A DNA stretch of 21,263 nt from a virus: the IMG/VR virus record IMGVR_UViG_3300027631_003017, positions 1 to 21,263 of that record. One strand, given 5' to 3'. Shown here piece after piece: positions 2,815 to 17,719 of this stretch; position 1 is the first letter of the stretch; each line of letters opens with the position of its first letter. Position numbers and translations under genes: made by a program. The notes under the pieces were generated by a model. That model worked only from the letters and a program-made list of their open reading frames with translations. It made no database searches and was not told where the DNA came from.

Positions 2815-2842
2815 AAGCCTCCTAAAAAGGAGGCTTTCTTTT
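2814..2842. terminator. Bidirectional intrinsic terminator
   Basis: A 9-bp stem AAAGCCTCC (2814-2822) pairs with GGAGGCTTT (2829-2837) around a 6-nt loop, with CTTTT after it on the plus strand and TTTTAT on the minus strand. It separates the convergent tail genes and the minus-strand operon ending at 2841. Confidence 0.9.
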
Positions 2843-3290
2843 ATTGTTGAGGCTTTTGTTTCTGCCAGTTATCCATTACAATTTGTCGTAATCTGTTATT
2901 AGCAAAATTCACAACTTTTTGATCTTTTGGATTCATTCTAGCAATACCACTAACTAGAATATTATATTTAGGATCTCTATCAGTAAGAGAGGTCAAATCA
3001 ATTCCATTTTTCTTAGCAATACCAGCAATTAAATCATTAGCTACTTGATCAACATTAATATTAGCGCTCAGGTTACTCATGTTACCGAGATCTCTATTTG
3101 TATTTAACATACTAGCATATTGAGCTTTTATAGAAGCTTTTTCCGGATCGCTTAGTCTAGCATCCCCGTAGGCTTGATTCATTACAGTATCCGCTCCAGT
3201 TTTATCACCTGACATAAGCATCTTTTTAGCGGTATTTATATAATATGCATAAGTAGTATTTACTTGTGAAACTTTAATCCATTTACTCAT
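2841..3290 (-). CDS. Small phage protein with MSKWIKV-type N-terminal tag
   Basis: 149 residues, family not recognised. It begins MSKWIKVSQ, the same opening as the gene at 4489-4866 and related to MWYKIAQ at 13677-14117. This is followed by a helical stretch INTAKKMLMSGDKTGADTVM that resembles the longer N-terminal tag seen elsewhere in the window. The rest is predominantly helical and polar, with no membrane segment or cysteines visible. It is the last gene of a four-gene minus-strand operon: its ATG lies 2 bases after the upstream TAA, with GGAT just before it as a ribosome site. The terminator follows at once. It is probably a minor virion or assembly protein, by context only. Confidence 0.75.
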   Translation of the reverse strand: MSKWIKVSQVNTTYAYYINTAKKMLMSGDKTGADTVMNQAYGDARLSDPEKASIKAQYASMLNTNRDLGNMSNLSANINVDQVANDLIAGIAKKNGIDLTSLTDRDPKYNILVSGIARMNPKDQKVVNFANNRLRQIVMDNWQKQKPQQ

Positions 3291-3292
3291 AA

Positions 3293-4486
3293 TTATCCGA
3301 TTACCACATTCTTTTCTCCATTAGTAATAATTACAAAAGGTTCTTCATGCACACTACTACCTTCGGATTCCATATTTAGCTTTTTAAATAATGGAGAAAT
3401 TTCTTTTTGTCTATCTACTCTTTTTTGTCTTCGTTCTGTTCCAATAGGTCTTTTATATTTTAATCCAATAACTAGACCTTCTCCTGGTATTTTTTCACCT
3501 TCAATATCATCAAGAAATCTAAGGTCATGTCTATCTCCATTAACAACTCTGTATGTCTTTCCATGATAGGTTAAAGTATCTGGAATTTGATCAAACACAA
3601 TAGCTACATTACCGCCTCTTTCAAGAAAGTTAAGAGCTTGTGATTTGTTTGATTCAGATCTAGAGAATGTCATATGATAGTTAGGATTAAATGGCTTGCC
3701 TGTATATGGATTTTGGCCTTTTAAATACATATCCATAAATTTAGGAACTTTAGTATAATCATAGAATGTTACATCAGAAAATTTTTCATGTAAATGTGCT
3801 GCTTCTTTAGCCCAGTTAATATCAGTGGTTCCGTTTAACCTAACTACTGGCTTTACATTTAAATCAAATACTGTATTTAGATTATGGCATAGGGATATTA
3901 AATTTCTAATATCTACTTCTAATATTTTATTTGAAAAATCTTTTGTTGCTGGATGAAACATTCTGCTAGTTTTCATTTCTCTACTAGCTTGAACATTATC
4001 AATCCCGCCTCTACCTGTGTGATAAATACAATCTTTTAAACATTGTGGAGAAGCATGTGTACAGGTTGTTTTAGTAGCATGAGGTGTATTATCTTTTTTA
4101 AACTTTTCCCATAATTGTGTTGTACTTAGACCTGATTTTTTATTCTCTAATTTATATTGATCAAATTCATCCATATTATAAATTTGAGATGCGCCTGGTT
4201 CAAGATATAAAATAGCTGTAATATAGCCTGATTTTAGTCCTTTAGGGGTTTTTGCATCATTTCCAACAGATAATAAATGGAATTTTGTAGCTTCTATTAA
4301 TTGATTTATTTTATTTAACTTTATAGGATCAATTTCATTATCAGATAAATCAGTATCAATATCATTACTAATCTCATCTAATTCTTCCGGTACATCTACT
4401 TGAGCTATTCTATTAAATACATAATCTGCATAAGAAAATAAATTCTTCTTTTCAATTTCTGCTAATTTTTTAAAAACAAGATGCAT
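3293..4486 (-). CDS. GP88-family phage protein with N-terminal tag
   Basis: 397 residues. After a tag-like N-terminus (residues 1-29, ending ADYVFNRIAQ) the body matches the phage GP88 ('gene product 88') family as I know it. Visible landmarks are NDAKTPKG, GYITAILYLEP, a Cys-rich patch THASPQCLKDCIYHTGRGG, VRLNGTTDINW, TFYDYTKVPKF, YHMTFSRSESN, NVAIVFDQ and DLRFLDD. Members occur widely in actinobacterial and other phages with no established biochemical role. The conserved Cys/His cluster suggests a metal or Fe-S site, which is inference. Usual members start near the NDAKT motif, so the first roughly 75 residues, including the tag and an acidic linker, look added on. It sits 2 bases downstream of the preceding stop, so it is translationally coupled within the 5147-2841 operon. 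Confidence 0.88.
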   Translation of the reverse strand: MHLVFKKLAEIEKKNLFSYADYVFNRIAQVDVPEELDEISNDIDTDLSDNEIDPIKLNKINQLIEATKFHLLSVGNDAKTPKGLKSGYITAILYLEPGASQIYNMDEFDQYKLENKKSGLSTTQLWEKFKKDNTPHATKTTCTHASPQCLKDCIYHTGRGGIDNVQASREMKTSRMFHPATKDFSNKILEVDIRNLISLCHNLNTVFDLNVKPVVRLNGTTDINWAKEAAHLHEKFSDVTFYDYTKVPKFMDMYLKGQNPYTGKPFNPNYHMTFSRSESNKSQALNFLERGGNVAIVFDQIPDTLTYHGKTYRVVNGDRHDLRFLDDIEGEKIPGEGLVIGLKYKRPIGTERRQKRVDRQKEISPLFKKLNMESEGSSVHEEPFVIITNGEKNVVIG

Positions 4487-4488
4487 GA

Positions 4489-4866
4489 TTATTTACTTTC
4501 GTTGTTAAGATCAATCGTACTACCAACAAATTTAATATTGTGATTATTTGATACATTAGATTTACCACCCGCATTTTCTGTATATGTGGTGGTGTTAGGT
4601 TTTTTATCAGGATTAGGTTCTTTTTCTTTTTTTCTTTTTTGGCGGATTCTAGTTTTACGTTCTTTATCTGTTAAGTTTTTCGCCTTATTAGCAGGGGTAC
4701 ATACAGGCTTTTTACCTTTTGATGTATCGCCTCTTCCACAAGGTTCATATCCCTTACCTTTTTTCTTAGGTCTTGAGACATCTACCCATTTTTCTTTAAA
4801 CCAATCTTTTAAATCAGCTTCTTTAGTGAATTCAGTATCTTCATCTACTTTAATCCATTTACTCAT
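4489..4866 (-). CDS. Small basic phage/viral conserved protein (WFKEKWVDVSRPKK motif)
   Basis: 125 residues, very basic. It opens MSKWIKV, matching the gene at 2841-3290. Residues about 22-95 carry a motif I know from many phages and large DNA viruses: DWFKEKWVDVSRPKKKG, EPCGRGDTSKGKKPVCTPANKA, then KRKKEKEPNPDKKPNTT. It resembles DUF5872-type proteins, although I am not certain of the accession. The two cysteines flanking basic residues could bind metal or nucleic acid; the role is unknown. The C-terminal 30 residues are Asn-rich and low complexity. AAGAG seven to eight bases before the ATG serves as a ribosome site, and the upstream gene ends five bases earlier. Confidence 0.8.
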   Translation of the reverse strand: MSKWIKVDEDTEFTKEADLKDWFKEKWVDVSRPKKKGKGYEPCGRGDTSKGKKPVCTPANKAKNLTDKERKTRIRQKRKKEKEPNPDKKPNTTTYTENAGGKSNVSNNHNIKFVGSTIDLNNESK

Positions 4867-4871
4867 GATAT

Positions 4872-5147
4872 TTAACTCTTTTTATAAGTTCCGCCTCTTT
4901 GTTTATAAAGGCGAACCAAAGCTGCAGATCCATAAGCAGAAGGCCAAATTTTAAATTTCTTCTTTACTTCTGATTTACAACGAGAATAAAGTTCTGGATC
5001 ATTAGGAACATTATTTTTCTTTGCTGGTTTCTTCTTTGCTATCTTTACAAATACATCTTGTAAATCATTAGCAACAACAATATTTCCATCATTTTCCAGT
5101 AATGTAATGATATGATTTAAATCATTGAGTAAGTTATTAGTATCCAT
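4872..5147 (-). CDS. Small phage protein: N-terminal tag plus WPSAYGSAALV domain
   Basis: 91 residues in two parts. Residues 1-38 are a clear N-terminal tag (LLNDLNHIITLLENDGNIVVAN, then LQDVFVKIAKK). Residues 48-91 (LYSRCKSEVKKKFKIWPSAY, then GSAALVRLYKQRGG) are a short conserved domain widespread in phages and large DNA viruses, of unknown function. It is the first gene of the 5147-2841 operon. Its leader ends AAATAAGTATG, identical to the leader end of the nitrilase gene at 19779, and no clear Shine-Dalgarno is present. The pairing of a common tag with a short basic domain supports a virion or assembly role, which is inference. Confidence 0.8.
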   Translation of the reverse strand: MDTNNLLNDLNHIITLLENDGNIVVANDLQDVFVKIAKKKPAKKNNVPNDPELYSRCKSEVKKKFKIWPSAYGSAALVRLYKQRGGTYKKS

Positions 5148-5184
5148 ACTTATTTTTTCTATGTAAAATTATTTGTAACCTTAT

Positions 5185-5213
5185 TTGACATTGCCATTAT
5201 ATTGGTATACAAT
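5185..5213 (+). promoter_or_regulatory. Sigma70-like promoter for the HNH gene
   Basis: A consensus -35 TTGACA (5185-5190) is followed by a 17-base spacer and -10 TACAAT (5208-5213). The predicted start is near 5220, leaving a leader of about 13 bases before the ATG at 5234. It is the only full consensus promoter I see in the window, which suggests direct recognition by host RNA polymerase and perhaps early expression. Confidence 0.8.
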
Positions 5214-5233
5214 ATGCTATCTGAAAGAATTTT

Positions 5234-5743
5234 ATGAACAGAGTATTATTACTTAATTTGGATTATGAACCTTTAAATATTTGTGATTTGCCTAGAGCTA
5301 TTAAATTGCTTATAAATGACAAAGCAGAAACATTACATTATAAGGATCATAAATATTTTTATTCTGGTAATGGTGATCGCTACTCAGTTCCTTCTGTCAT
5401 AAGATTAAAACACAATGTCCGCCGTAAACATAACACCAGCTTTAAAGTTAGTAGAGGTGGAATTTATGGCAGAGATAATTACACATGTCAATATTGCGGT
5501 ATTAGAAATATTGATTTAACTTTAGACCATGTTTATCCCAGGCATTTAGGTGGAAATCATACTTGGGATAATCTTGTCACTTGTTGTAGATCCTGTAATA
5601 TCAAGAAAGCTGGAAAAACGCTAGAAAAAAGCGGAATGAGACTACTTTCTAAACCTAACCTGCCTGTATATTCTTTTTATCATTTATTGTGCTCATATAA
5701 AGAAAAAGATAGCGAATATTGGGACTATTATTTGGTGAGATAA
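5234..5743 (+). CDS. HNH endonuclease
   Basis: 169 residues. Residues 85-88 (CQYC) and 118-121 (CRSC) give the two zinc-binding CxxC pairs. Residues 97-99 (LDH) supply the catalytic His, and W111-N113-L114 is the usual HNH 'WDNLV' segment, so all signature residues are present. The N-terminal 80 residues (VLLLNLDYEPLNI...RAI.LL..DKAE) match the extension of the common stand-alone bacterial/phage HNH family. Members are free-standing nucleases, some linked to packaging or homing. There is no sign of a surrounding intron. It has its own consensus promoter and ends in a strong terminator, so it is a monocistronic cassette inserted between two minus-strand operons. Confidence 0.92.
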   Translation: MNRVLLLNLDYEPLNICDLPRAIKLLINDKAETLHYKDHKYFYSGNGDRYSVPSVIRLKHNVRRKHNTSFKVSRGGIYGRDNYTCQYCGIRNIDLTLDHVYPRHLGGNHTWDNLVTCCRSCNIKKAGKTLEKSGMRLLSKPNLPVYSFYHLLCSYKEKDSEYWDYYLVR

Positions 5744-5744
5744 A

Positions 5745-5770
5745 AAAAGAGGACTTTTCAGTCCTCTTTT
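5745..5770. terminator. Bidirectional intrinsic terminator
   Basis: An 11-bp perfect stem AAAAGAGGACT (5745-5755) pairs with AGTCCTCTTTT (5760-5770) with a TTTC loop; A-runs and T-runs flank it. It serves the HNH gene and the convergent gene ending at 5784. Confidence 0.93.
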
Positions 5771-5783
5771 CTATTTATGCTTT

Positions 5784-6590
5784 CTATTCAAAATCATAGT
5801 CGCCGAGTTTTTCTCTTTGTAGTCTATCAACTGTATATGTTCTTACCATTGATAAATGGAATAATTCATCTTTCAAATCAGCCATAGTTTCTGGTATTTC
5901 AGTAGCTTTGAATGATGAATTGCTAACAAAGATAAATTCATCATCACCATACATTTCAGGCAATGACATTCCTTCTTCTTTTGCATCCATTAAAGACACT
6001 GCGACAGGAGCAACAGATATTTCCATCTCTCTACCGGCTCTTTTATAATGTTCAGCTATAACTCTTCCAAAACCATATGCATCAGATTCAGAAGAAAAGA
6101 CTAAATCTTTACCTTTGACATCTAAAATGTTTTCATTGATCATTAACAAGAATCCGAAATCACCAATATCTTCTATTCCGGAAGCTAAAGCATCTTCTAA
6201 TTCTTGAGTTTTGCGAGCATCTGATTCTGAACGCACCCATTCAACAATTAAAATATTTACTGGTATTCTGACAATTGTTAGATTTTCTAAACCAGTCATA
6301 GCTTTAACTTTTCCTCTTATTTCAGGAAGATCTTGATCAAAAGGTAAAGCTGCTAAATATTTTCCTTCATGCATTACTGGTTGATTAGTGGCAGCATTAA
6401 AAAATACAGGTGTCGGATGAATTATCTCATGAGGAGTATTGTCATCATCTTCTAAATCATCTTCGTCATCGTAATTTTCTTCATCATCTTGTGTTTGTGA
6501 TAAAACCAAGTTAAAAATATAATCTGATCTTTTATATTGACCAGTCTTATCTAAATTTGATGCTAGTTTAAGGTATTGCTTGTAATTCAT
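5784..6590 (-). CDS. Unknown phage protein with N-terminal tag and acidic linker
   Basis: 268 residues. Residues 1-35 are a typical copy of the recurrent N-terminal tag (YLKLASNLDKTGQYKRSDYI, then FNLVLSQTQD). A strongly acidic linker follows (EENYDDEDDLEDDD, about residues 37-50), then a mixed alpha/beta domain of about 210 residues that I do not recognise (for example TIVRIPVNILIVEWVRSESD and a conserved-looking GFGRVIAEHYK). There are no cysteines and no membrane segment. The arrangement tag, flexible linker, domain suggests the tag acts independently of the body. An 87-base gap separates it from the GIY-YIG gene. TAGAAT lies six bases before its ATG and could be a -10 box of a leaderless promoter. 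Confidence 0.8.
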   Translation of the reverse strand: MNYKQYLKLASNLDKTGQYKRSDYIFNLVLSQTQDDEENYDDEDDLEDDDNTPHEIIHPTPVFFNAATNQPVMHEGKYLAALPFDQDLPEIRGKVKAMTGLENLTIVRIPVNILIVEWVRSESDARKTQELEDALASGIEDIGDFGFLLMINENILDVKGKDLVFSSESDAYGFGRVIAEHYKRAGREMEISVAPVAVSLMDAKEEGMSLPEMYGDDEFIFVSNSSFKATEIPETMADLKDELFHLSMVRTYTVDRLQREKLGDYDFE

Positions 6591-6677
6591 TAAAATATTC
6601 TACTTTGTACTATTTTTAAAGTTTATAACTTGTTCTTTTGTCCATAGATGTTTTGCTGTCATATGGATGGTTAGATT

Positions 6678-7379
6678 TCAGCCGTCAAGATTGTCTTTAT
6701 CACAAATAGGGCAGGTATATCTTGGTCTGTTTAGAGCATTTTGGATATATACTTTTTTATCTGTTTTATTTTCATAAGGCTTAGATATGTTAATCAAACA
6801 ATACCCTGCACATGAGCCTTTTGAAAAAGTTTTATCTTGATTACTGATGAGAGTTTGATAATTGAGATTATTTTGTTCACAATATGTTCGTAAATTTAAT
6901 GCACTCAATTCAATAACATCATTATTTGGAGTTATCAAATGGTATAAAAATTTGGCATTTAAAATACTTCTAGATTTAGCACCACCTTTTGCATGCCATT
7001 CTTTTCCATATTTTTCAATTATAGCTTTACCGCCTTTTTTACCGGCATTACTTTGATGTTCTAAAAATGATTTATAATCATTTTGTTTCATTTCTTTCAA
7101 ATGATTTCCGCCGCCAAATGCCATATTGTAGGAATTTTTATCATTTACAACTTCAGCATTTACAACTTTTCTTTCGAGATCCCAAAGCTCTTCTGTAGTT
7201 TCGCATTGATATAAAATTTCTTTACTGAAATTTTCTTTGCCATATTTATTGATTGCATTGATAATTCCAATGCCACTCCCAAAATAATCATCATTTATAT
7301 TATCTGTTGAATGTCTTCCAATATAATATTTACCATTGATATTGTTAGTAATTTTATATAAATAATGAAACTTTCTCAT
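6678..7379 (-). CDS. GIY-YIG family endonuclease (putative homing endonuclease)
   Basis: 233 residues. The N-terminal catalytic module is clear: YLYKITNNINGKYYIGRHST carries the two short strands of the GIY-YIG fold (here YLY...YIG) with the following Arg, and the catalytic Glu is probably in the LERKVVNAEVV helix around residues 70-78. Y-F-G-S-G (residues 32-36) is typical of phage members. The C-terminus ends with CPICDK, half of a zinc ribbon, which may indicate a partial or degenerate DNA-binding tail. Its ATG overlaps the upstream stop by one base (TAATG), so it has inserted tightly into an operon of small tagged proteins, as free-standing homing endonucleases often do. The DNA target is not identifiable. 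Confidence 0.9.
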   Translation of the reverse strand: MRKFHYLYKITNNINGKYYIGRHSTDNINDDYFGSGIGIINAINKYGKENFSKEILYQCETTEELWDLERKVVNAEVVNDKNSYNMAFGGGNHLKEMKQNDYKSFLEHQSNAGKKGGKAIIEKYGKEWHAKGGAKSRSILNAKFLYHLITPNNDVIELSALNLRTYCEQNNLNYQTLISNQDKTFSKGSCAGYCLINISKPYENKTDKKVYIQNALNRPRYTCPICDKDNLDG

Positions 7380-7966
7380 TATTTACCCTTAAGATTGTCA
7401 GATACAGATCTCCCAGCTTCCCAATTGCGACATGACCACCAACGAGCTTTCCACTTTTTACCTGGATTGTCACAATTATGCCTGGCTCTGAAATTTTTTC
7501 TACGTTCTGGGTCGTCTCTTTTAATTTCCATGTCTGGCGAGCCAAAATTAACCTTAATGATATTACCCTTATCGTTCTTTACATAAACAGAGAACTTTTT
7601 AGGACCACCCGGAGTTCTGAAAGGCTTGTTTAGTTTCTTGCCATCATTTTTAGCAGCTGTTTTCTGACCAACAGTTTCTTCGCTGACTAAATAATCAGAG
7701 ACACCTTTTAGCATTTGAACAGCATTAGAAATTTTAGACTGTACCCAAGCCATCAAATTCCCTTCGCCATCTTCGCCCACTACATCTTCAATGCCTTCAA
7801 TAGCTCTTTTAGCAGTTTCCATTTCATTTCTGACCATATCGTATTCATGGTCCCAATCTTCATTAGCAAATTTGTTCATTGCTAAAGTAATTTTATCTGC
7901 TAATCTATGAGCACTATTATTATCTAATTCTAATGCTAAATCTGCTAAATCTTCAATAGTAGCCAT
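7379..7966 (-). CDS. Tagged phage protein with RARHNCDNPG/WWSCRNW C-terminal motif
   Basis: 195 residues. Residues 1-35 are an N-terminal tag (IEDLADLALELDNNSAHRLA, then DKITLAMNKFANED). The middle is helical. The C-terminal 75 residues carry a motif I recognise from many T4-like and other large phages: KFSVYVKNDKGNIIKVNFGS, DPERRKNFRARHNCDNPG and KARWWSCRNWEAG. The His/Cys pattern suggests a small metal-binding fold. I associate this motif with head or assembly-related phage genes, though its function is not established. The start follows the upstream stop directly, with CGGAAG as ribosome site, so the gene is cotranscribed with 7967-8269. The GIY-YIG endonuclease sits directly downstream. 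Confidence 0.82.
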   Translation of the reverse strand: MATIEDLADLALELDNNSAHRLADKITLAMNKFANEDWDHEYDMVRNEMETAKRAIEGIEDVVGEDGEGNLMAWVQSKISNAVQMLKGVSDYLVSEETVGQKTAAKNDGKKLNKPFRTPGGPKKFSVYVKNDKGNIIKVNFGSPDMEIKRDDPERRKNFRARHNCDNPGKKWKARWWSCRNWEAGRSVSDNLKGK

Positions 7967-8269
7967 TTATTCTTCCGATCTAAGCATTTCTTCCGCTTCA
8001 GAAAGATTTTTTGCTTTTACTTGTTCTAATTCTCTAGCTAACTGTTGAGCTTTGAATTGGCCATCAACATAATAATTTTCTCTAAAGTTTTGCCAACCTT
8101 CATTTTTAGCAACATTATTAAGTGCATGAGCCATGGCAAGATAATCAACATCTTCGTTTTTATCAAAAATTCCGGACAGTCTCTTCATTACAGAAGTGAT
8201 TTCATTCGCTTCCTTGTACATACCATAATTATCTAAATCGTTAGCAATAGAAGCTAATTTATTAAGCAT
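7967..8269 (-). CDS. Small helical protein with N-terminal tag
   Basis: 100 residues. The first 36 (LNKLASIANDLDNYGMYKEA, then NEITSVMKRLSG) are one of the clearest tag copies. The remaining 60 residues are predicted helical and charged (ALNNVAKNEGWQNF, ARELEQVKAKNLSEAEEMLR), with no recognised domain. A good Shine-Dalgarno (TTGGAGATTTAGAA before ATG) makes this the first gene of the minus-strand operon 8269-6678. It may be a small assembly or internal virion protein, from context only. Confidence 0.78.
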   Translation of the reverse strand: MLNKLASIANDLDNYGMYKEANEITSVMKRLSGIFDKNEDVDYLAMAHALNNVAKNEGWQNFRENYYVDGQFKAQQLARELEQVKAKNLSEAEEMLRSEE

Positions 8270-8365
8270 TTCTAAATCTCCAAAAACAATATAATCTAAT
8301 ATTTCTTCTACAATAATATATGAACCTTTAAAAGGTAATATAACATTCTTCTAGAAAATAACAAT

Positions 8366-8713
8366 ATGTACAATAATAAGCTCTATAGAACAGCGGAAAA
8401 TTTATCTGAAAAATTCATTGTTCCATCTAATGTTCAAAAAATTGCTCAAGAAGGTTATGATTGGGGAAGAAATAATAGAAATTATTGTTCTTCAAAACAG
8501 TTGGAATTATCTAGAATATTAGCAATGCAAAATATGATGAAGTTATCAGATATTATTGATATTCACGAATACACTGCTAAGAATAGATTTAGAATACCTT
8601 CAGATCCAGAAAGAAAAGAAGCTTGGATTTGGAAAATGTACGGAGGAGAAGAGGCTAGACGATGGAGCGAATATATTGTTCGTGTTAATAGCAAAAAACA
8701 TTTAAAAGTGTAG
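8366..8713 (+). CDS. Small unknown protein with tag-like N-terminus
   Basis: 115 residues with no recognised family. The first 29 residues (LYRTAENLSEKFIVPSNVQK, then IAQ) end in the same KIAQ motif as other tags, though the middle differs. The rest is rich in aromatic and basic residues (YDWGRNNRNYC, AWIWKMYGGEEARRWSEYIV). It is transcribed divergently from the operon at 8269, with 96 bases between the starts. There is no Shine-Dalgarno. The gene ends just upstream of the promoter for the large RNA, so read-through could also transcribe that RNA. Confidence 0.65.
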   Translation: MYNNKLYRTAENLSEKFIVPSNVQKIAQEGYDWGRNNRNYCSSKQLELSRILAMQNMMKLSDIIDIHEYTAKNRFRIPSDPERKEAWIWKMYGGEEARRWSEYIVRVNSKKHLKV

Positions 8714-8733
8714 ATGCATTTTAATAAGAATAA

Positions 8734-8741
8734 TGTATAAT
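8734..8741 (+). promoter_or_regulatory. -10 promoter element of the large non-coding RNA
   Basis: TGTATAAT ends at 8741 and contains a perfect TATAAT (8736-8741). No good -35 is present at 16-18 bases. The predicted start is near 8748. The same TGTATAAT string occurs at 9499-9506. Confidence 0.6.
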
Positions 8742-8747
8742 AGTGTT

Positions 8748-9491
8748 GTACTTTGAAAATTGAATAAGTGATTCTCGGTGGCTTGACATCGTAAGATAGT
8801 AGAGTGTGAAAAAAGGGATAAAGCTATTCTCTACAGCTCCCGCCCAACTCAGGGTCATTCAAGCAAGCTCATCTCTCTAAGGTTTTGCAATAGAATGTGG
8901 AACTATGATTGAAGATGTAAATTAAGGTGGCAGCAATCATACTTAATTTGTGCGAACATCGAAATCTGAAGAGTAAGAGTAGTATAAAGGTCTGATGTAC
9001 ACGGCAAAAGGCTTTTATGCATGATTAGAGGTGAAACGATATAACAGTCGTATTAATCTCAAAATCACGCCTGGTAACTTCGTGAAAGTGAAAGGCATGG
9101 AATGTGTCATATTTCTGTGAAGAAGTGACAAAACGAGCACATTCTTGTAGAGTAGGGTATGTAATCGCAATATCAGCGTATTTAGTAACCCATAAATAGA
9201 CTCGTTTCGTGTTGGAAGTAAGCAGTGACTGTCGAAACATTTAAGAAATACATTCAGGAACTATAAATAAAAAAGTGTAAATCTTAATTCAGAACCTTAT
9301 TCATCGCAATTGAGTATACGTTCTGATATAACTAGGAAACCAACATTAGACTGGGCCGCCTCCAGTATAAATAGGACACTGTATGATCTTACTAGTAATA
9401 GTGGACAAATGGGCAAATCATATTTGCGAGTGATGTAATCCCATTAAATAGATCATAAGAGCAAGGTAAGTCTAACCTTGCTCATTCCTTT
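8748..9491 (+). ncRNA. Large structured non-coding RNA, about 740 nt (GOLLD/ROOL size class, family unassigned)
   Basis: No frame holds a credible gene across 8714-9512, and base composition is visibly less AT-rich than the neighbours. The stretch is bounded by a TATAAT box and a perfect 9-bp terminator with a T-run. Perfect helices I can pair by eye: 8781-8786/8859-8864 around 8799-8804/8829-8834; 8904-8911/8934-8941 (8 bp); 8919-8926/8942-8949 (8 bp); 9036-9040/9047-9051; 9100-9106/9138-9144 enclosing UUCU-GUGA-AGAA with a GNRA loop (9113-9124); 9150-9153/9200-9203 and 9155-9158/9188-9191; 9204-9209/9233-9238; 9289-9295/9320-9326; 9350-9354/9362-9366; 9382-9389/9450-9457 enclosing 9408-9413/9440-9445 and 9413-9418/9422-9427. 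Size, phage context and elaborate architecture fit the giant ornate phage RNAs GOLLD and ROOL. I cannot confirm either from memory, and no tRNA is adjacent. It could be a new class. Confidence 0.8.
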
Positions 9492-9493
9492 TT
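9459..9493 (+). terminator. Intrinsic terminator of the large RNA
   Basis: GAGCAAGGT (9459-9467) pairs perfectly with ACCTTGCTC (9475-9483) around a 7-nt loop and is followed by ATTCC and TTTTT (9489-9493). It sets the RNA 3' end near 9491. Its 3' arm contains the probable -35 of the next promoter. Confidence 0.92.
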
Positions 9494-9506
9494 AACTCTG
9501 TATAAT
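9478..9506 (+). promoter_or_regulatory. Promoter placing transcription start at or next to the ATG of 9513
   Basis: TTGCTC (9478-9483), a 17-base spacer and TATAAT (9501-9506) form a sigma70-like promoter. The -10 ends six bases before the ATG, so the predicted start coincides with the start codon and the mRNA would be leaderless. The -35 overlaps the terminator stem of the large RNA. Confidence 0.65.
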
Positions 9507-9512
9507 ATATCT

Positions 9513-10436
9513 ATGAACAATATTAGTAATGGCGTAAGCTTCAAGAAAAAGAATAGTCAATCCATAGATACTGAAAAAGCTCTAACTGCTGGTATTTACT
9601 CTTGGATTGACGATAATAAAAATCTCGTACATATTGCACAAAGATTAGCTGGTTTAACAGTAAATCTAGGACTTTGCGATACTAATGTACACAACCCATT
9701 TCAGATTGTTCCTACAGATTTATTTGCTGAAAACGGTAATCTGCATCATGAATTATTTCTAAATATTGATCATGCAGCTTGGGGATATTTTAGAATACAA
9801 ATTGAATCAGAATGTAAATTTAGTGTTGTAGAGCCTAAGCTAATTAATAATTCTGAATCCCCTATGATTTATATGTCTGAATTAGAAGTAGAAGAATATA
9901 TTAAATCACTAGCAGGAAGATTAGATGATCATTATAAACTTCTTGAGTTATTAGATGAAAATAAATTAGAAGAAGCACAAAACATTCTTGATTCTGCTTT
10001 GGATATTTACAAGAGATCAATTTCAGAACCATTGTCTAGTATTAAAAATATTATTGATTTCTTCAATGGAGAAGTTGTTATTAAAGCTACTAATGATGAA
10101 ACAGCTGTCCAATCTGTAAAATCTTTAGATACTAGATATGATTTAGCTCTTTTGCATCCTGAGAACTGGGTTGTTACAAAGAGCGATGGAATATGTGGTC
10201 AAGAATGGTTATCTTCTCATCTTAAGGCTTTCTTTGTCTTAGAAAATAAATCCGCATCTCTTCTTTATCTATATCAAAAACTAATCAAGGATGCGGGATT
10301 TAGATTAATTGTCCACACTGATTCTGTAAAGTCCGAAGCAGATTTTACAGATGAAGTAATGAGAGATGAAGCTATGAAATTAACTTTAGTTCGTCCTGTA
10401 ATTCATGCTACTAAATTAGAAATCTTAAATGGATAA
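9513..10436 (+). CDS. Unknown phage protein, first gene of a glycosyltransferase/Fe-S carrier operon
   Basis: 307 residues, no family recognised. The N-terminus is polar and basic. Residues about 55-110 look beta-rich (NPFQIVPTDLFAENG, HHELFLNIDHAAWGYFRIQI). Residues about 125-190 are helical with coiled-coil-like spacing (EVEEYIKSLAGRLDDHYKLL and onward). The last 110 residues are mixed. There is no signal peptide and no tag of the kind seen elsewhere. No Shine-Dalgarno precedes the ATG, which sits six bases after a TATAAT box, consistent with a leaderless message. Its last 8 bases overlap the next gene, so the two are translationally coupled. Confidence 0.75.
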   Translation: MNNISNGVSFKKKNSQSIDTEKALTAGIYSWIDDNKNLVHIAQRLAGLTVNLGLCDTNVHNPFQIVPTDLFAENGNLHHELFLNIDHAAWGYFRIQIESECKFSVVEPKLINNSESPMIYMSELEVEEYIKSLAGRLDDHYKLLELLDENKLEEAQNILDSALDIYKRSISEPLSSIKNIIDFFNGEVVIKATNDETAVQSVKSLDTRYDLALLHPENWVVTKSDGICGQEWLSSHLKAFFVLENKSASLLYLYQKLIKDAGFRLIVHTDSVKSEADFTDEVMRDEAMKLTLVRPVIHATKLEILNG

Positions 10437-11709
10437 TTGGGGTATTACTGGTGGAGGATGGGGAGATGTATTTGTTTCCCTGTCCAATGCTAAAAGAAGA
10501 AACATTAGAAATATTATTCTTTTAGGTCCATTTCCAGAACTAAAAGAATTTATTTTAGCTCAAGATTTCGTTGATAATTGTGAGCATTATTTATTCACAC
10601 CCGCAGAATCTATTTATTGGCAGAGTTTTGTAAATCTATGTTCTCCTTGGAAAACAGAAACACAAATAAAAGAATACAAAGTTTATTTTAATTTGCCACA
10701 AGATAGAGAATATACATCAATTCAATTAAGTGTATCTGGCGGTGAAGATTTATCATTATTAGACACATATAATTATTCATCAAGAGCTTATGAATATTTA
10801 CCAGATTACGAAGATTTTATTTTATTTCAACCATCTTCTAATCATTCCACTCCTGATGAAAATAAATGGAAATATTGGCCAGAATTTTTAAATGAAGTAT
10901 GTGAATTTTTCCCTAATAACAAAGTAATTTTAATCGGTCAAGGTAATCAGGGATATAATGATATAAAGTACCCTAATTTCATTAATTTGAGGGATAAATT
11001 CAGTAGTGCGGAAGGTGTAGCTTTATTTGCAGAGAAGGCTAAGTTGATTATCACTTTACCAAACAACTTAATCTATTGGTTACATGTAAAAAATAAACCA
11101 GTAATAAGTATCTCTAATAAAGAATTTAACTTATTGTCTCCTTTTAAAAGATTATTAATCAAGCCTACTTTAATAGATCTTGAATTTGATGTCACTTATG
11201 AAGATGCGGTTAATACACTTCATAACTGGGAAGCATTAGTTAACAGAGATAGAAAAGAAATAACTTGTCCTTATAAATTTATATCTAAATTTACTATGAT
11301 TAATCAGCATACAGTTAATGATTTATATAGTAATAAATCTAGTATGTCAATATACAGAAATATAATGTTAGATAATAAGGATGTTGATTGGTTTTTCTTT
11401 AGTGAAATTGATATCAAATATTTATATAGTGTTTTGAATATATTAGGTGGTAATTTCGAAGTAGGAGTTACGCTTAATGAAACACTTATGGAACAATATA
11501 ATAATTTAGAAAAATATTTAGTTTTAAGAAAATATGGCGCAGTGAAGAATCCTTTTGTCATATGTAGTAAAGCTAATTTAGAAAGTGTTTTAGCTGCAAA
11601 TGTTATCGGTTTTATTTGTATTGGTGATAATATCTATAGTCATTCGTTGCAAGAATATGAAGTAGTTAGATACCAGGAGTTTATGCATGGAAGAAGAATT
11701 AAAAATTAA
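10429..11709 (+). CDS. GT-B glycosyltransferase-like protein (GT9/heptosyltransferase-like) with unknown C-terminal domain
   Basis: 426 residues. The first 35 residues (NWGITGGGWGDVFVSLSNAK, then a RNIILLG strand) resemble the glycine-rich first loop of ADP-heptose-type GT9 enzymes (G.GD....). The middle (DFILFQPSSNHSTPDENKWK, then YWPEFLNEVCEFFPNNKVIL, IGQGN, then LFAEKAKLIITLPN) matches the C-terminal Rossmann half, where the nucleotide sugar binds. Residues about 285-426 (from SSMSIYRNIMLDNKDVDWFF on) are an extra domain I do not recognise. A role in modifying host surface glycans or phage DNA/virion sugars is possible; the substrate cannot be told. It overlaps the preceding gene by 8 bases and the Fe-S carrier gene by 23. 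Confidence 0.6.
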   Translation: MDNWGITGGGWGDVFVSLSNAKRRNIRNIILLGPFPELKEFILAQDFVDNCEHYLFTPAESIYWQSFVNLCSPWKTETQIKEYKVYFNLPQDREYTSIQLSVSGGEDLSLLDTYNYSSRAYEYLPDYEDFILFQPSSNHSTPDENKWKYWPEFLNEVCEFFPNNKVILIGQGNQGYNDIKYPNFINLRDKFSSAEGVALFAEKAKLIITLPNNLIYWLHVKNKPVISISNKEFNLLSPFKRLLIKPTLIDLEFDVTYEDAVNTLHNWEALVNRDRKEITCPYKFISKFTMINQHTVNDLYSNKSSMSIYRNIMLDNKDVDWFFFSEIDIKYLYSVLNILGGNFEVGVTLNETLMEQYNNLEKYLVLRKYGAVKNPFVICSKANLESVLAANVIGFICIGDNIYSHSLQEYEVVRYQEFMHGRRIKN

Positions 11710-12067
11710 TATTACCGAAGCAGCATCTGAAGAGATCATTTCTATTATGGAGTCACATCCTGATATGGAATTATGTGTCAGATTAGGTGTATCGGCTGGT
11801 GGTTGTGCTGGATATAAGTATCATTTAGGCTTAGAAGAATTCGTACCTGAAATTGATGATATTATTTTAGATGACAAAATCAAAATAGTTGTCAATACAG
11901 ATATTATGAAAATAGTCAACGGATCTGAAATTGATTTTATTAAAGACCAAAATGGATTTAAAGTTACTAATCCTAATATGAAAAAAGGATGTGGCTGTGG
12001 TCAATCTTTTAGCGTTGGGGGAGATTCATCAGGTTCTAGCGGTTGTGGAAGTTGTGGAAACTTTTAA
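11687..12067 (+). CDS. A-type iron-sulfur carrier (HesB/IscA/ErpA family)
   Basis: 126 residues. The three ligand cysteines of the family are in place: C40 (AGGCAGYKY) and the pair C102/C104 (KKGCGCGQSF). The alternating strands INITEAASEEI, LCVRLGV and IKIVVNTDIM between them fit the fold. These small dimers bind Fe-S clusters or iron and deliver them to apoproteins. The family usually stops soon after CGCG.SF; here an extra Gly/Ser-rich tail adds a second pair, C120/C123 (SSGCGSCGNF). AGGAG seven bases before the ATG at 11687 decides the start, inside the end of the upstream gene. It is followed by a terminator and faces the SOD/Dps-like operon. Confidence 0.92.
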   Translation: MEEELKINITEAASEEIISIMESHPDMELCVRLGVSAGGCAGYKYHLGLEEFVPEIDDIILDDKIKIVVNTDIMKIVNGSEIDFIKDQNGFKVTNPNMKKGCGCGQSFSVGGDSSGSSGCGSCGNF

Positions 12068-12071
12068 ATAA

Positions 12072-12097
12072 TAAAGGCCCCTTTTATGGGGCCTTTA
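12072..12097. terminator. Bidirectional intrinsic terminator
   Basis: A 10-bp perfect stem TAAAGGCCCC (12072-12081) pairs with GGGGCCTTTA (12088-12097) with a TTTTAT loop, between the convergent Fe-S carrier and Dps-like genes. Confidence 0.92.
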
Positions 12098-12099
12098 CT

Positions 12100-12468
12100 T
12101 TAGCTGAGTGTAAGTAAATATTTCAGTTTATTTAGCTCTGCGGACATTTCATCTCTAATATTCATGAGATCTGTATCCTTAGCAGTATCTAGACCATTTA
12201 CTAAAGGTCCCATAAGATAATCTAAAAATGCTTCAATGAATTTAGTAACATCTTCATCGCCATTTAGATTTCTAAGAGTGATGGTAAAGTTATTCTGTGC
12301 TTTTAACATACCATTCTTACCTTGGAACACTTCGATAAATTGATCAATAAGCAATGTTAGAGCATCATAAGCTCCACCAAATGCCATATGAGCAGCGTAA
12401 GATCTAGTTTGCCAATGATAAACTTTAAGTTGATTATGTAAAGTTAATAGATTTGTAATAAGATTCAT
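12100..12468 (-). CDS. Dps/ferritin-like small protein
   Basis: 122 residues, shorter than Dps (about 160-170). Residues 10-48 carry a Dps-like metal signature: H11, HW at 18-19 (LKVYHWQTRSYAAH), H27, D42 and E46. The H27-D42 (15) and D42-E46 (4) spacings equal those in the E. coli Dps ferroxidase site (H63, D78, E82), whereas HW to the next His is 9 instead of 12. The same LK.FHW.T.SYA.H pattern occurs in small ferritin-like proteins of phages and large DNA viruses. Likely roles are iron binding, peroxide detoxification or DNA binding; oligomer size is unknown. It is the last gene of the SOD operon, 2 bases after the upstream stop. Confidence 0.72.
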   Translation of the reverse strand: MNLITNLLTLHNQLKVYHWQTRSYAAHMAFGGAYDALTLLIDQFIEVFQGKNGMLKAQNNFTITLRNLNGDEDVTKFIEAFLDYLMGPLVNGLDTAKDTDLMNIRDEMSAELNKLKYLLTLS

Positions 12469-12470
12469 CT

Positions 12471-12995
12471 TTATTCCATTCCAAGAAGATCTTCTGAATC
12501 TTCCATATTTTCTTCTAGAAGACTTAATGCTGCTTTCATAGTTTCAGGACCAACAGCACCATCTGGAGTAATACCATGAGCTTTTTGGAAGTTCTTAGTA
12601 ACAAGCATAGTAGATTGTCCAAAACGTCCATCATCATCTAGTCTGCCATCAAAGTGGTCATTGAGGAATCTTTGCCAATTTCTAACGCCAGATCCAGCAA
12701 CATTAATTCTCATGCCCATACCTAATCTATAACCATGTTCTGCCATTTGATTAAGAATATCTTGTTTATCCTTAGCTTTGTCCATAGTGTCCTTAACTAA
12801 AGCCCCAGCACCACCGGCCATTCCAAGACCAGCAGCCCAATTAACACCTTTAGATAAAAAATCTTTTCTAGACATATCTGCTTGAGCTACTTTTTCAAAT
12901 ACTTCTTGTACCTGAGATGCTAAAGTATATTTACCCTTTGATTCTAAAGAATTGATAACATTGTTTAGATTATTTAATGTTGCAATACGATCCAT
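12471..12995 (-). CDS. Tagged peptidoglycan-binding domain protein
   Basis: 174 residues. Residues 1-38 are the best copy of the N-terminal tag (LNNLNNVINSLESKGKYTLA, then SQVQEVFEKVAQ). Residues about 48-65 are Gly/Ala-rich and mildly hydrophobic (NWAAGLGMAGGAGALV) and might touch a membrane. Residues about 100-160 form a PG_binding_1-type domain (VRNWQRFLNDHF, DDDGRFGQSTMLVTKNFQKA, then HGITPDGAVGPETM), which binds cell-wall peptidoglycan in hydrolases and virion proteins. No catalytic domain is attached. A tagged wall-binding protein fits an internal virion or tail component acting during genome entry, which is inference. It lies 1 base after the SOD stop, with CGGAG as ribosome site. Confidence 0.85.
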   Translation of the reverse strand: MDRIATLNNLNNVINSLESKGKYTLASQVQEVFEKVAQADMSRKDFLSKGVNWAAGLGMAGGAGALVKDTMDKAKDKQDILNQMAEHGYRLGMGMRINVAGSGVRNWQRFLNDHFDGRLDDDGRFGQSTMLVTKNFQKAHGITPDGAVGPETMKAALSLLEENMEDSEDLLGME

Positions 12996-12996
12996 A

Positions 12997-13677
12997 TTAT
13001 TCTCCGTTATATTTTTTTGAAATAAAGTCCCAATTTACTACTTTAAACCAAGATGTAATGTATTTCTCTCTATTATTCTGATATTTGAGATAATATGCAT
13101 GTTCCCATACGTCACATCCCAAAACAGGAATCCCACATTTTTCAATGTATGGATTAGATTGATTATCAAAACTTTGTATTTTTAATTTACCATCATTAAC
13201 ACAAAGCCATACCCATCCAGACCCAAAATGCTTGACTCCCGTTTCAATAAATTCTTTTTTAAACTTATCAAAACTTCCAAACTGTTTATCAATATTATCT
13301 GCAAGTTTTCCAGATGGTTTTTGATTCATTTCAGGGGACATTGTAATCCAGAAATAAGAATGGTTAAAATGACCACCAGCATTATCTAAAAATGCTTCTT
13401 TATCTTTTACATCTTTAGGATCTTGTAATAATTCAACTAAAGTCTTATCACTGTTACCAAGAAGCTCATTCATTTTATCTACATATTTTTTATGATGTTT
13501 GTCGTGATGTAATTTCATTGTAGCTGCATCAATAACAGGCTCTAATGCAGAATGAGAATATGGTAATTTTGGTAATTCAAGTCCGAAATCATGATCTTCG
13601 CTTAATGATTTGAATATTTCTTTTACTTTTTTGGAAGTTCTAATATTTTTATCATAAAAAGTAATGTAATCGATCAT
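12997..13677 (-). CDS. sodA: Superoxide dismutase, Mn/Fe family (Mn-type features), N-terminally extended
   Basis: 226 residues. All four metal ligands align with E. coli MnSOD: H57 (LHHDKHH), H106 (NHSYFW), D189 and H193 (CDVWEHAYY). H61 and Y65 match second-sphere H30/Y34. G102 (GGHFNHS) and Q173 (DNQSNPY) are the Gly/Gln pair typical of Mn rather than Fe enzymes. It would convert superoxide to peroxide and oxygen. The normal enzyme begins around residue 32 (LELPKLPYSHSALEP); the first 31 residues are an extra helix-forming extension ending VKEIFKSLSED, not a signal peptide, and they resemble the ends of the window's N-terminal tags. It overlaps the upstream stop (start at 13677) and is followed 1 base later by the peptidoglycan-binding gene. 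Confidence 0.93.
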   Translation of the reverse strand: MIDYITFYDKNIRTSKKVKEIFKSLSEDHDFGLELPKLPYSHSALEPVIDAATMKLHHDKHHKKYVDKMNELLGNSDKTLVELLQDPKDVKDKEAFLDNAGGHFNHSYFWITMSPEMNQKPSGKLADNIDKQFGSFDKFKKEFIETGVKHFGSGWVWLCVNDGKLKIQSFDNQSNPYIEKCGIPVLGCDVWEHAYYLKYQNNREKYITSWFKVVNWDFISKKYNGE

Positions 13678-14117
13678 TAGCTTACTCCAACCATAACTGG
13701 ATTTGTATCGGCTGGTGGGGTAGTAGGGATACTAAGATTAGTTATACCAGTAATATCAATAGCTGGATGTAAACCTGTAGCTGGATTAACATTGCCTACT
13801 CCACAAGCTAATATTTGTGTAACAGTAGGATCCATGCCGTTATTTCTCATCCATTGTGCTAGATCTTGTTCAGCGATACTAGTTCCACCAACATCAAAAT
13901 ATTCTACACCATTAGAATAGTTGCCATGTAATACTAAGAATTTTTTACCATCTGTTGTAGTGAATTGGTATGGCTGATGTGAATCTAAGGACTTTTTAAT
14001 ATTTTGTGCTGTAGGATAATCGACAGAAAATCCAGCATTACCACCTCCAGAAACATGTGTCGGAGAGGTTGTGTCAGCTATATTTTGAAAATTTTGTTGA
14101 GCAATTTTATACCACAT
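13677..14117 (-). CDS. Unknown protein with short MWYKIAQ N-terminal tag
   Basis: 146 residues, family unknown. It opens MWYKIAQQ, related to the MSKWIKVSQ starts at 3290 and 4866 and to the KIAQ end of the longer tags. A Gly/Thr-rich segment follows, then a compact domain (PYQFTTTDGKKFLVLHGNYS, then VEYFDVGGTSIAEQDLAQWM, then ILACGVGN) and a Pro/Thr-rich C-terminus (NLSIPTTPPADTNPVMVG). It is the first gene of the SOD/peptidoglycan-binding/Dps-like operon and is divergent from thioredoxin reductase, with 66 bases between starts. No catalytic motif can be named. Confidence 0.72.
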   Translation of the reverse strand: MWYKIAQQNFQNIADTTSPTHVSGGGNAGFSVDYPTAQNIKKSLDSHQPYQFTTTDGKKFLVLHGNYSNGVEYFDVGGTSIAEQDLAQWMRNNGMDPTVTQILACGVGNVNPATGLHPAIDITGITNLSIPTTPPADTNPVMVGVS

Positions 14118-14168
14118 ATCTAAAAGTTCTTCTTTATTCTTATTATTTCCTACTGTTGCTAAGAATTT

Positions 14169-14176
14169 GGTACAAT
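14169..14176 (+). promoter_or_regulatory. -10-like element directly before trxB
   Basis: GGTACAAT, with TACAAT at 14171-14176, ends seven bases before the ATG at 14184. No Shine-Dalgarno and no convincing -35 are present. The spacing predicts a leaderless or near-leaderless transcript, as at 9501-9513. Confidence 0.45.
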
Positions 14177-14183
14177 ATTTAGT

Positions 14184-15104
14184 ATGGAAAATATCGCAAT
14201 TATTGGTAGTGGACCAGCTGGATATACAGCTGCCATCTATTGTTCTAGGGCTAATTTAAGTCCAGTGTTATATACAGGTTTTATGCAAGGTGGTCAATTA
14301 ATGAACACCACAGAAGTAGAAAATTACCCAGGTTTTAAGGATGGGATTTTAGGGCCAGACTTGATGAATGAAATGGAACAACAAGCATTAAGGTTTGGTA
14401 CTAGAATGATTTATCAAGATGTTTCAGAATTAGAAAAACAAGGTGATAAATTTTTAGTAACATCAGATGGAATTACTGAAGAATATAAATCTGTTATTTT
14501 TTGTACTGGTGCTTCTCCTAAATGGTTATCTGTGCCTGGAGAGTCTGAATTTTTAGGCAGAGGAGTTACATCTTGTGCTACCTGTGATGGATTTTTCTAC
14601 AAAGGCAAAAATGTAGTAGTAGTGGGTGCTGGTGATACTGCTATGGAAGAAGCCTTGTATCTTAGTAAAATCTGTTCTTCTGTTCAGCTTATTAATCGTT
14701 CCTCATCCTATAAAGCATCTAAAATTATGGTGAATAAGGTTTTCAATACAGAGAATATTACTGTGTATGAAAATACTGTAATCAAGCAAATTATTGGAGA
14801 TGATAAAGTAAATGCTGTGATCCTACATAATGATGTTCTTGAAAAAGAATCATTATTATCAGTAAGTGGTGTTTTTGTAGCAATTGGAAATATACCTAAT
14901 TCATCATTAGTGAAGCATTTTAACATTGTAGAATCTGATGGATATATTTCTACTGTTAACACAAAAACTAATATTCCAGGATTATTTGCTTGCGGGGATG
15001 TTGCAGATAAACATTATAAACAAGCAATAACATCAGCAGGTTCAGGATGTATGGCAGCTTTGGAGTCTGAAAGATATTTGCTTACTCAGACTGCGACCAC
15101 ATAA
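14184..15104 (+). CDS. trxB: Thioredoxin reductase
   Basis: 306 residues, normal length for the low-molecular-weight bacterial enzyme. FAD is bound by GSGPAG (8-13) and the C-terminal ATG-like motif with GLFACGDVAD. The redox-active disulfide CATC is at 131-134, and the NAD(P)H-binding GAGDTA is at 148-153. In E. coli the 2'-phosphate of NADPH is held by HRRDGFRA; here the equivalent is NRSSSYKA (171-178), so one Arg is Ser and another Lys, which may weaken NADPH preference. It would reduce thioredoxin or a glutaredoxin-like partner for ribonucleotide reductase or redox repair. No thioredoxin gene lies in the window. It is divergent from the SOD operon and overlaps the convergent gene at 15082 by 23 bases. 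Confidence 0.95.
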   Translation: MENIAIIGSGPAGYTAAIYCSRANLSPVLYTGFMQGGQLMNTTEVENYPGFKDGILGPDLMNEMEQQALRFGTRMIYQDVSELEKQGDKFLVTSDGITEEYKSVIFCTGASPKWLSVPGESEFLGRGVTSCATCDGFFYKGKNVVVVGAGDTAMEEALYLSKICSSVQLINRSSSYKASKIMVNKVFNTENITVYENTVIKQIIGDDKVNAVILHNDVLEKESLLSVSGVFVAIGNIPNSSLVKHFNIVESDGYISTVNTKTNIPGLFACGDVADKHYKQAITSAGSGCMAALESERYLLTQTATT

Positions 15105-16232: not shown

Positions 16233-16724
16233 CTAGTTTCTACCACCACCACCAAAGTTGTTACCATTCCCTCTAGATCTACCAAATTGATTGATGAACA
16301 AAATATTACCAAAAATACTCTGTAAATCAAATGGGTCGATATGATTAAACTTAATAACTTCCCAAGCAATAGAATTATTTTTCTGAGCCATTAATAAACC
16401 AGCATCAAAATCTGGATCTGGATTAGCTTCAATTTTAATTCTTCTTGCCTTTACAATCCATACATCATTTTCTTTAATATATGTAAGAGGAACTGTAGAA
16501 GCTCTCATCACTATCTTTAAAGAATTTTCAAATGGTATATCTGTGAGAGTGCATGTTACAAAGCCAGATACAGAATTATCAATAACATAATTTTTAATAC
16601 CAGCCTGTTTAAACATCATTTCAATTGTTGATCTGATAGGTGCTTCTTTTAAATCAACAGTAATATTTTGGCTATAAGATGGAATAGCACATAAGCAAGC
16701 TAAAAGAGCTAATAGTTTTTTCAT
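16233..16724 (-). CDS. Exported protein with secretin/TonB N-terminal (STN-like) domain
   Basis: 163 residues. Residues 1-18 are a signal peptide (MKKLLALLACLCAIPSYSQ, cleavage probably around SYSQ), so the product goes to the periplasm. Residues about 20-95 look like an STN/secretin short domain: ITVDLKEAPIRSTIEMMFKQ, AGIKNYVID, a SGFVTCTLTDIPFENSLKIV strand-helix and YIKENDVWIVKARR. In secretins and TonB receptors this domain docks inner-membrane partners; here the pore-forming domain is missing. The C-terminus is a low-complexity GRSRGNGNNFGGGGRN tail. Its ATG overlaps the stop of the similar upstream gene (ATGA), and GAGGT is the ribosome site. A role in modulating host secretion, pili or the envelope is speculation. 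Confidence 0.72.
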   Translation of the reverse strand: MKKLLALLACLCAIPSYSQNITVDLKEAPIRSTIEMMFKQAGIKNYVIDNSVSGFVTCTLTDIPFENSLKIVMRASTVPLTYIKENDVWIVKARRIKIEANPDPDFDAGLLMAQKNNSIAWEVIKFNHIDPFDLQSIFGNILFINQFGRSRGNGNNFGGGGRN

Positions 16725-17065
16725 TTCTTGACCTCTACATCATATATTTTATTTTTTCCAATAGACTGAATCTTAAATACAATATTATATTTAAATGACA
16801 AATATTCCATTGTTTCTTCAACAGTAAAACCGATAAAGCTAAAGTTTTTATGATCTACTTTTTCTAAGGATGAATCAATACTTTTATTTCTAATATTAGC
16901 TTGCTTGAAAAACCCTTCTACCACTTCTTTAGCATTTTTATAATATGTTGAATTAATGCTAATTAGGATCTCTTTCTTTGGCTTAGGAATATCTTGTGAA
17001 TAAGAATATTTACTTAAGGATGCGAATAGTAAAACAGTGAATAATATAGTTTTATAGAACTTCAT
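16721..17065 (-). CDS. Exported small protein, second STN-like paralogue
   Basis: 114 residues. A signal peptide occupies about residues 1-23 (MKFYKTILFTVLLFASLSKY, then SYSQ). The remaining 90 residues have the same layout as the next gene: a strand ILISINSTYYKNA, a helix VVEGFFKQANIRN, the short I-D-S-S loop, then F.GFTVEETMEYLSFKYNIV and a strand KNKIYDVEVKK. Compare MMFKQAGIKNYVID and IPFENSLKIV in the neighbour. The pair looks like a duplicated, diverged STN-like domain. A ribosome site AAAGGAC lies within the first codons of the divergent gene, whose start is only six bases away. Function is unknown. Confidence 0.65.
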   Translation of the reverse strand: MKFYKTILFTVLLFASLSKYSYSQDIPKPKKEILISINSTYYKNAKEVVEGFFKQANIRNKSIDSSLEKVDHKNFSFIGFTVEETMEYLSFKYNIVFKIQSIGKNKIYDVEVKK

Positions 17066-17071
17066 TTTTTT

Positions 17072-17717: not shown

Positions 17718-17719
17718 TT

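Follow-up and report, generated by a model that had tools for sequence, protein, structure and literature searches.

Several proteins with unrelated bodies, encoded in a 21 kb IMG/VR virus record (IMGVR_UViG_3300027631_003017; 21,263 nucleotides, here the window or G000), begin with a similar two-helix segment, here called the long tag. We put the probability at roughly 0.7 that this tag, together with a shorter form that has the same ending, is a loading signal that targets proteins to the capsid and is cleaved by a protease, in a clade of huge tailed phages. This reading is based on the tag and its modularity, its ending, a head maturation protease found in relatives, a motif that the tag ends share with the protease and scaffold proteins, and the classes of protein that carry a tag.

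The window corresponds to approximately 44–65 kb of a 166 kb contig, G001 (IMGVR_UViG_3300027193_000501), in reverse orientation, and two proteins compared between them were 100% identical. G001, itself a fragment, contributed 253 open reading frames (ORFs) to the profile search and is one of five large related contigs (G001, G041, G005, G030 and G010; 166–379 kb) with 1854 ORFs in total. A megablast search of INPHARED with the region and a tblastn search of phages with the tag returned no match, and no RNA genes were found in the window with Rfam and ARAGORN.

A long tag shared by unrelated proteins

The minus-strand genes listed in a first-pass annotation of the window are present where it had placed them. 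Six of their products had been said to share the two-helix N-terminus:

4872–5147, minus strand: DUF5872-family protein (E 1.7e-8); long tag at residues 1–38 (MDTNNLLNDLNHIITLLENDGNIVVANDLQDVFVKIAK), then a lysine-rich linker; leave-one-out E 2e-5; three tagged orthologs
5784–6590, minus strand: 268 amino acid (aa) protein; long tag at residues 1–32, then an acidic linker; leave-one-out E 8e-4; ortholog G030_19263 tagged
7379–7966, minus strand: 195 aa protein with a phrog_7595-like body; long tag at residues 1–35, with KFAN at its end; leave-one-out E 1e-3; tagged orthologs in all four other contigs
7967–8269, minus strand: 100 aa protein; long tag at residues 1–32 (MLNKLASIANDLDNYGMYKEANEITSVMKRLS); leave-one-out E 7e-12
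12471–12995, minus strand: peptidoglycan-binding protein; long tag at residues 1–38, with EKVAQ at its end, followed by a hydrophobic segment and then by a PG_binding_1 domain (E 4e-10); leave-one-out E 4e-9; GH108/PG-binding relatives tagged
3293–4486, minus strand: GP88-family protein (GP88 E 4e-29); weak long-tag-like N-terminus, with NRIAQ at its end

A hidden Markov model built from these six N-termini detected six further G001 proteins outside the window (E 2e-13 to 8e-6), the match beginning at residue 1 in five and at residue 5 in one. When each member of a 16-member seed was left out in turn, 13 of the 16 were recovered at E <0.005; the weak ones were G001_101358 (E 0.02), G001_90189 (E 0.3) and the GP88-family protein (E 0.87). 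The best match of the same profile to reversed and locally shuffled G001 proteomes had an E-value of 0.27. The segments are therefore recovered across G001 above background, and the presence of a common two-helix N-terminus on unrelated products, as first proposed, is confirmed far beyond chance. Five of the six listed members are secured by the profile, while the GP88-family protein is left with visible similarity only. The products said to lack the tag, namely trxB, the HNH and GIY-YIG nucleases, the Fe-S carrier and the nitrilase, do lack it. Iterated over the five contigs, the profile found 88 long-tag stretches at E 1e-3.

An AlphaFold2 model from 30 aligned tags is a helical hairpin, with helices at residues 3–20 and 23–37 and a mean predicted local distance difference test score of 97. 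Foldseek comparison of this hairpin with the PDB gave matches to generic two-helix structures and nothing better than E 1.0. Among the families listed (25 of 28) for 138 tagged proteins, no tetratricopeptide repeat (TPR) family matched at E ≤0.001; one TPR_10 match had an E-value of 0.048.

L006 and L007 had been considered as relatives of the peptidoglycan-binding protein and were rejected, the similarity being a chance one with a T4-like NNLNNVIN stretch.

A short form with the same ending

A second, shorter N-terminus, MWY[KR]xA, recurs in the same contigs. It has no hairpin and keeps the [KR]xA. G001 includes a run of genes whose products start MWYRYAA, MWYRTAI, MWYRISA and MWYSLAA, as well as starts with MWYRLAQ and MWYKIAQ. 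In the five contigs, 50 of the 1854 ORFs start with MWY, whereas WY follows only one of 6237 internal methionines (Fisher p 2.4e-31), and the control starts MYW and MKS[WYF] are at background level. If the motif may begin at any of the first 60 residues, the count of short forms is 55, with K or R at position 4 in 48, A or S at position 6 in 45, and most often Q at position 7. MSK[WYF] is a rarer variant that is also overrepresented at ORF starts (p 1e-5). In IMG/VR, a degenerate DNA pattern encoding MWY[KR]hAQ matched 54 stretches, a few of them plainly by chance, and matched several contigs more than once.

The window includes one typical short tag and two variants:

13677–14117, minus strand: 146 aa protein that begins MWYKIAQ; homologs in the four other contigs begin MWY[KR]xA/S or MSWYRLAQ
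2841–3290, minus strand: 149 aa protein with the variant MSKWIKVSQ
4489–4866, minus strand: 125 aa protein with the variant MSKWIKV; homologs long-tagged or without a recognised tag

Two further products had been assigned parts of the tag, and neither assignment held:

12997–13677, minus strand: Fe/Mn superoxide dismutase with an N-terminal extension of approximately 32 residues and Sod domains from residue 34
8366–8713, plus strand: 115 aa protein whose N-terminus, MYNNKLYRTAE, is only loosely short-tag-like

The N-terminus of the superoxide dismutase contains no motif of the tag kind, and the ending attributed to it is the MWYKIAQ that starts its upstream neighbour at 13677–14117. The N-terminus of a superoxide dismutase relative in G005 is also different. 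The looser version of the tag seen in the 115 aa protein is KIAQ at residue 25, which belongs to a region of the body that, judged by eye, appears to be conserved in orthologs (IPSNVK.A). Two of the three orthologs of this protein (G005_298044 and G041_231009) carry a long tag.

The tag ending and the head maturation protease

[KR]x[AS] ends 69 of the 79 N-terminal long tags, and the next residue is most often Q. In G001, G041 and G005, the motif [KR]xA[QS] occurs at residues 1–12 of proteins at 2–3 per 1000, versus 0.2–0.55 in mid-protein. The N-terminal rise is smaller in G030, and in G010 it is absent there and is seen at residues 13–60.

The first-pass annotation had proposed finding the prohead protease and testing its motif. 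The head operon of relatives runs from TerL through several smaller genes to the portal and a polyprotein of approximately 1400 aa that includes a head maturation protease domain, followed by an acidic scaffold-like protein, a 223 aa protein and the major capsid protein (MCP). In G005, the polyprotein is encoded at 133072–137289, and its protease domain spans residues 30–320 approximately. The protease, portal, TerL and MCP were identified via PHROGs and via homologs in phage G and Gordonia phage Pupper. The protease is homologous to Pupper gp94 and Rhodococcus phage E3 gp77, the homologs of the portal include phage G gp14 and, on inspection of the sequences, the MCP is homologous to phage G gp27. 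A head maturation protease was found in 15 of the 22 records searched, including most of the large tagged relatives.

When the 1854 ORFs were ranked by their excess of [KR][IVLMFTY]A[QS] sites relative to shuffled sequence, the protease polyprotein came first, with 8 sites versus 0.52 expected, and third place went to the scaffold-like protein (4 versus 0.15). A de novo search of the protease and scaffold proteins that made no use of the tags placed [KR]xA[QS] at the top of 10,976 residue-class patterns (47 versus 9.9). The excess, approximately 3–8-fold, is present in nearly all of approximately 73 MCP-linked loci, with little in L182, and many of the sites are conserved alignment columns (up to 31/33). 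The polyprotein and scaffold of the clade are thus enriched for the motif that ends the tags, and [KR]xA[QS] is the putative cleavage motif of the protease.

Several observations weigh against a cleaved loading signal. No protease gene was found on the window's own contig, the fragment G001, and the link from the window to the protease therefore runs via close relatives only. The 284 aa MCP has no propeptide and so is of no use as a check of cleavage. The enrichment counts include homologous, non-independent proteins, and basic amphipathic helices alone could raise [KR]xA, although the reversed motif is not raised as much. Relatives in the deep branch have the protease and the motif and hardly any tags of either form that can be recognised, and tags found at C-termini lack the terminal motif.

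The last point bears on a different reading, in which the tag is a docking module for the capsid or virion. It would bind the core or capsid and remain on its cargo without being a protease substrate, the [KR]xA[QS] ending being a by-product of a basic amphipathic helix. The ending is missing in 10 of the 79 N-terminal tags, and the hairpin alone is predicted to be a stable fold, both as this reading would have it. However, the short form has no hairpin and still has [KR]xA, and no pattern in the de novo search of the protease and scaffold ranked above [KR]xA[QS]; we consider a retained docking module unlikely.

Modularity and placement of the tags

Within one genome, tags are 54–76% identical on bodies that mostly share no more similarity than shuffled sequences, and tags are mostly kept across orthologs. 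Both forms are found on homologous bodies: in a PcfJ-type family (several members of 489–602 aa), the short form is found in three genomes and the long form in another. Placement is not only N-terminal. Tag-related segments lie at the C-terminus of approximately 10 proteins in the related contigs. In the family of G001_2101, G005_229886 and their relatives, most members have, close to the N-terminus, a segment of the short or KIAQ type, and the long form is at the C-terminus. The other C-terminal long tags are on proteins of 611–1008 aa, with an acidic linker before the tag in several. Because tags also occur at C-termini and as the short form MWYKxA, the N-terminal two-helix propeptide is part of the system only.

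Tandem tagged genes suggest duplications, and the fold is generic with no specific PDB match, as would be expected if the tag were an ordinary single TPR-like hairpin inherited via gene duplications and without a targeting role. This seems very improbable when 54–76% identical tags sit on bodies mostly at chance-level similarity, when placement is mostly terminal and tags are kept across orthologs, and when a second, unrelated form has the same ending.

Tagged and untagged proteins

Pfam families among the 138 tagged proteins include GH108, PG_binding, LysM, NLPC_P60, Glucosaminidase, Peptidase_C92, PcfJ, ART-PolyVal and DUF3990, and also InPase, NUDIX, HAD_SAK_2, DnaJ, FHA, zinc ribbons and DUF5872. 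A comparison set of 90 conserved proteins without a tag, similar in mean length, includes DNA polymerase III subunits, primase, sigma70, RusA, PhoH, RNase HII, a methylase and others; DnaJ is present in both sets. The tagged proteins are thus lysins and polyvalent-type effectors, and enzymes of replication, transcription and metabolism make up the untagged set. Packaging and injection of ART-PolyVal and InPase domains were predicted by Iyer et al. 2017 (PMC5512222). Some tagged genes are inside the head operon, between TerL and the portal.

A single N-terminal address on many unrelated enzymes could also sort them elsewhere, for instance to an early vesicle, a lytic complex, a phage nucleus or the host membrane, and in some proteins (12471–12995 and G001_86503, read from sequence) a hydrophobic segment follows the tag. 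We give this only a small chance of being correct. Homologs of the phiKZ nuclear shell protein (gp54) and virion RNA polymerase, sought at the sequence level in the five contigs, were not significant (best E 0.28 and 0.015, respectively), replication proteins are untagged, and the tag end coincides with the candidate head-protease motif while some of the tagged genes are in the head operon.

The first-pass annotation had suggested a capsid-packaging or compartment-targeting signal cleaved near its A-Q end. The profile, the protease, the motif, the cargo classes and the head-operon genes support the capsid-packaging reading without proving it.

A proposed loading mechanism

Core binding, cleavage and the bond at which it would occur, and the entry of the cargo into virions and its injection are predictions from sequence. 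Cargo made during head assembly would carry either the hairpin of the long form or the MWY[KR]xA of the short form. The tag would bind the inner core of the forming prohead, made of scaffold and protease polyprotein, and the cargo would be co-assembled. The head maturation protease would then cut at [KR]-x-A-[Q/S], either before or after the Q/S, chopping the scaffold and freeing the cargo from its tag. At the next infection, the freed cargo would exit with the DNA and act early in the host; it would include cell-wall hydrolases, ADP-ribosyltransferases (ARTs), NUDIX proteins, and PcfJ- and InPase-type polyvalent effectors.

We lean slightly towards a broader proposal, that the tags are a general, transferable address code whose two forms are interchangeable and usable at either protein end, and by which approximately 20–40 proteins are loaded per head. 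Since a transferable tag would make any gene that gained it an injected effector, the proteins that an uncultivated huge phage injects could be read from sequence.

Distribution of the tags

The long-tag profile A2 matches 27 of the 43 records that have the short-form pattern. A relative of the clade MCP is encoded by 143 IMG/VR stretches, and tags are found down to approximately 72% MCP identity. In a branch with 57–66% MCP identity, long tags are absent or nearly so (one match, in G061), and the protease family is shared. A tag-like system in the deep MCP branch was considered and rejected, as a weak N-terminal motif excess was seen in G058 only and none was clear in G060. No long or short tags were found in phage G or Pupper, though these share the protease family.

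The 334 kb record G018 (IMGVR_UViG_3300033067_001661) encodes proteins that begin MWYKLAQ or MWYKFAQ and has the protease in a 2005 aa frame. No long tags were found in G018, which may be an outgroup with the short form only.

A clade MCP (79% identity) is encoded in a 1.36 Mb contig, L229 (JAFDWS010000002.1), of an Armatimonadetes metagenome-assembled genome. A protease polyprotein and weak tags are found at 144–427 kb of G062:C5, which is probably the same contig. This could be a prophage, a clue to the host or a mis-binned huge phage.

Comparison with known systems

The closest precedent, on our best reading, is the capsid targeting sequence of T4. The T4 prohead protease motif is [LI]xE, unlike the [KR]xA[QS] found here, and the clade also differs in its two tag forms, in having far more carriers per genome, and in its hairpin and its occasional C-terminal copies. 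As on IPI, IPII, IPIII and Alt of T4, where gp21 is the protease, a short N-terminal propeptide is common to unrelated proteins that would be internal, with a targeting part followed by a processing part; T4 cargo is freed by the head protease and ejected with the DNA, as we infer here. In the T4 sequence, residues 4 and 7 serve targeting and residues 8 and 10 processing, and Alt, an ART, is processed at its C-terminus too (PMC9026906). A search of 20 records with the Gp23 and Peptidase_S77 families gave no match, and its positive controls gave none either. The MCP and protease of the clade are homologous to the phage G and Pupper types.

In P1, the N-terminal 30 residues of DarB suffice to bring a reporter into heads (PMC9024508). 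The same authors did not find a consensus common to the Dar proteins (PMC9024508), whereas one profile covers dozens of proteins here. SPN3US and other phiKZ-type phages likewise have large heads and many internal proteins with N-terminal propeptides cut at a short motif, the prohead protease gp245 cutting A-X-E (PMC10052503); in our clade the cut is a prediction. The putative cleavage motif of the clade differs, and SPN3US propeptides are mostly 111–254 residues long, with no common transferable tag.

The portal, capsid maturation protease and MCP of the clade are homologous to those of phage G, Mycobacterium cluster C phages, Gordonia phage Pupper and Rhodococcus phage E3. Four phage G (NC_023719) head-region proteins, including the protease-domain match gp19, have [KR]xA[QS] sites (K-x-A-S) above the shuffled level:

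3934–4737: gp4
6287–9079: gp7
12336–14282: portal
16840–17742: gp19

The phage G protease may share the specificity; no phage G proteolysis data were found in the literature.

The tagged proteins resemble the polyvalent proteins of Iyer et al. 2017, with ART-PolyVal and InPase cargo, and PcfJ and NUDIX are also among them. In that paper, domains and genome context are the basis for predicting packaging (PMC5512222), and a targeted term search turned up no description of a shared packaging tag there. A description of the tag was not found in the open-access literature, where the strings MWYK[LI]AQ and MWYR[LI]AQ occur in no paper.

Injected proteins are normally known from virion mass spectrometry of isolates, and this clade is uncultivated. 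If the loading signal is real, the tag lists the candidate cargo of such a clade from sequence alone, dozens of uncharacterised proteins gain a place of action, and a protease family common to phage G and the cluster C mycobacteriophages gains a testable cut motif. A modular tag could also be used to load chosen proteins into large phage heads.

Other features of G001

A GroEL-like protein and two ClpP-like proteins, read from sequence, are encoded in G001 at positions listed jointly as 75059–76675, 117825–118424 and 146336–146977, and a ClpX-like ATPase identified with PHROGs/BLAST is at 16579–17955. The large proteins encoded at 101358–105122 and 119402–121777 have a common C-terminal domain; the copy in the former shares 40% identity with a Microcystis phage MaMV-DC hypothetical protein.

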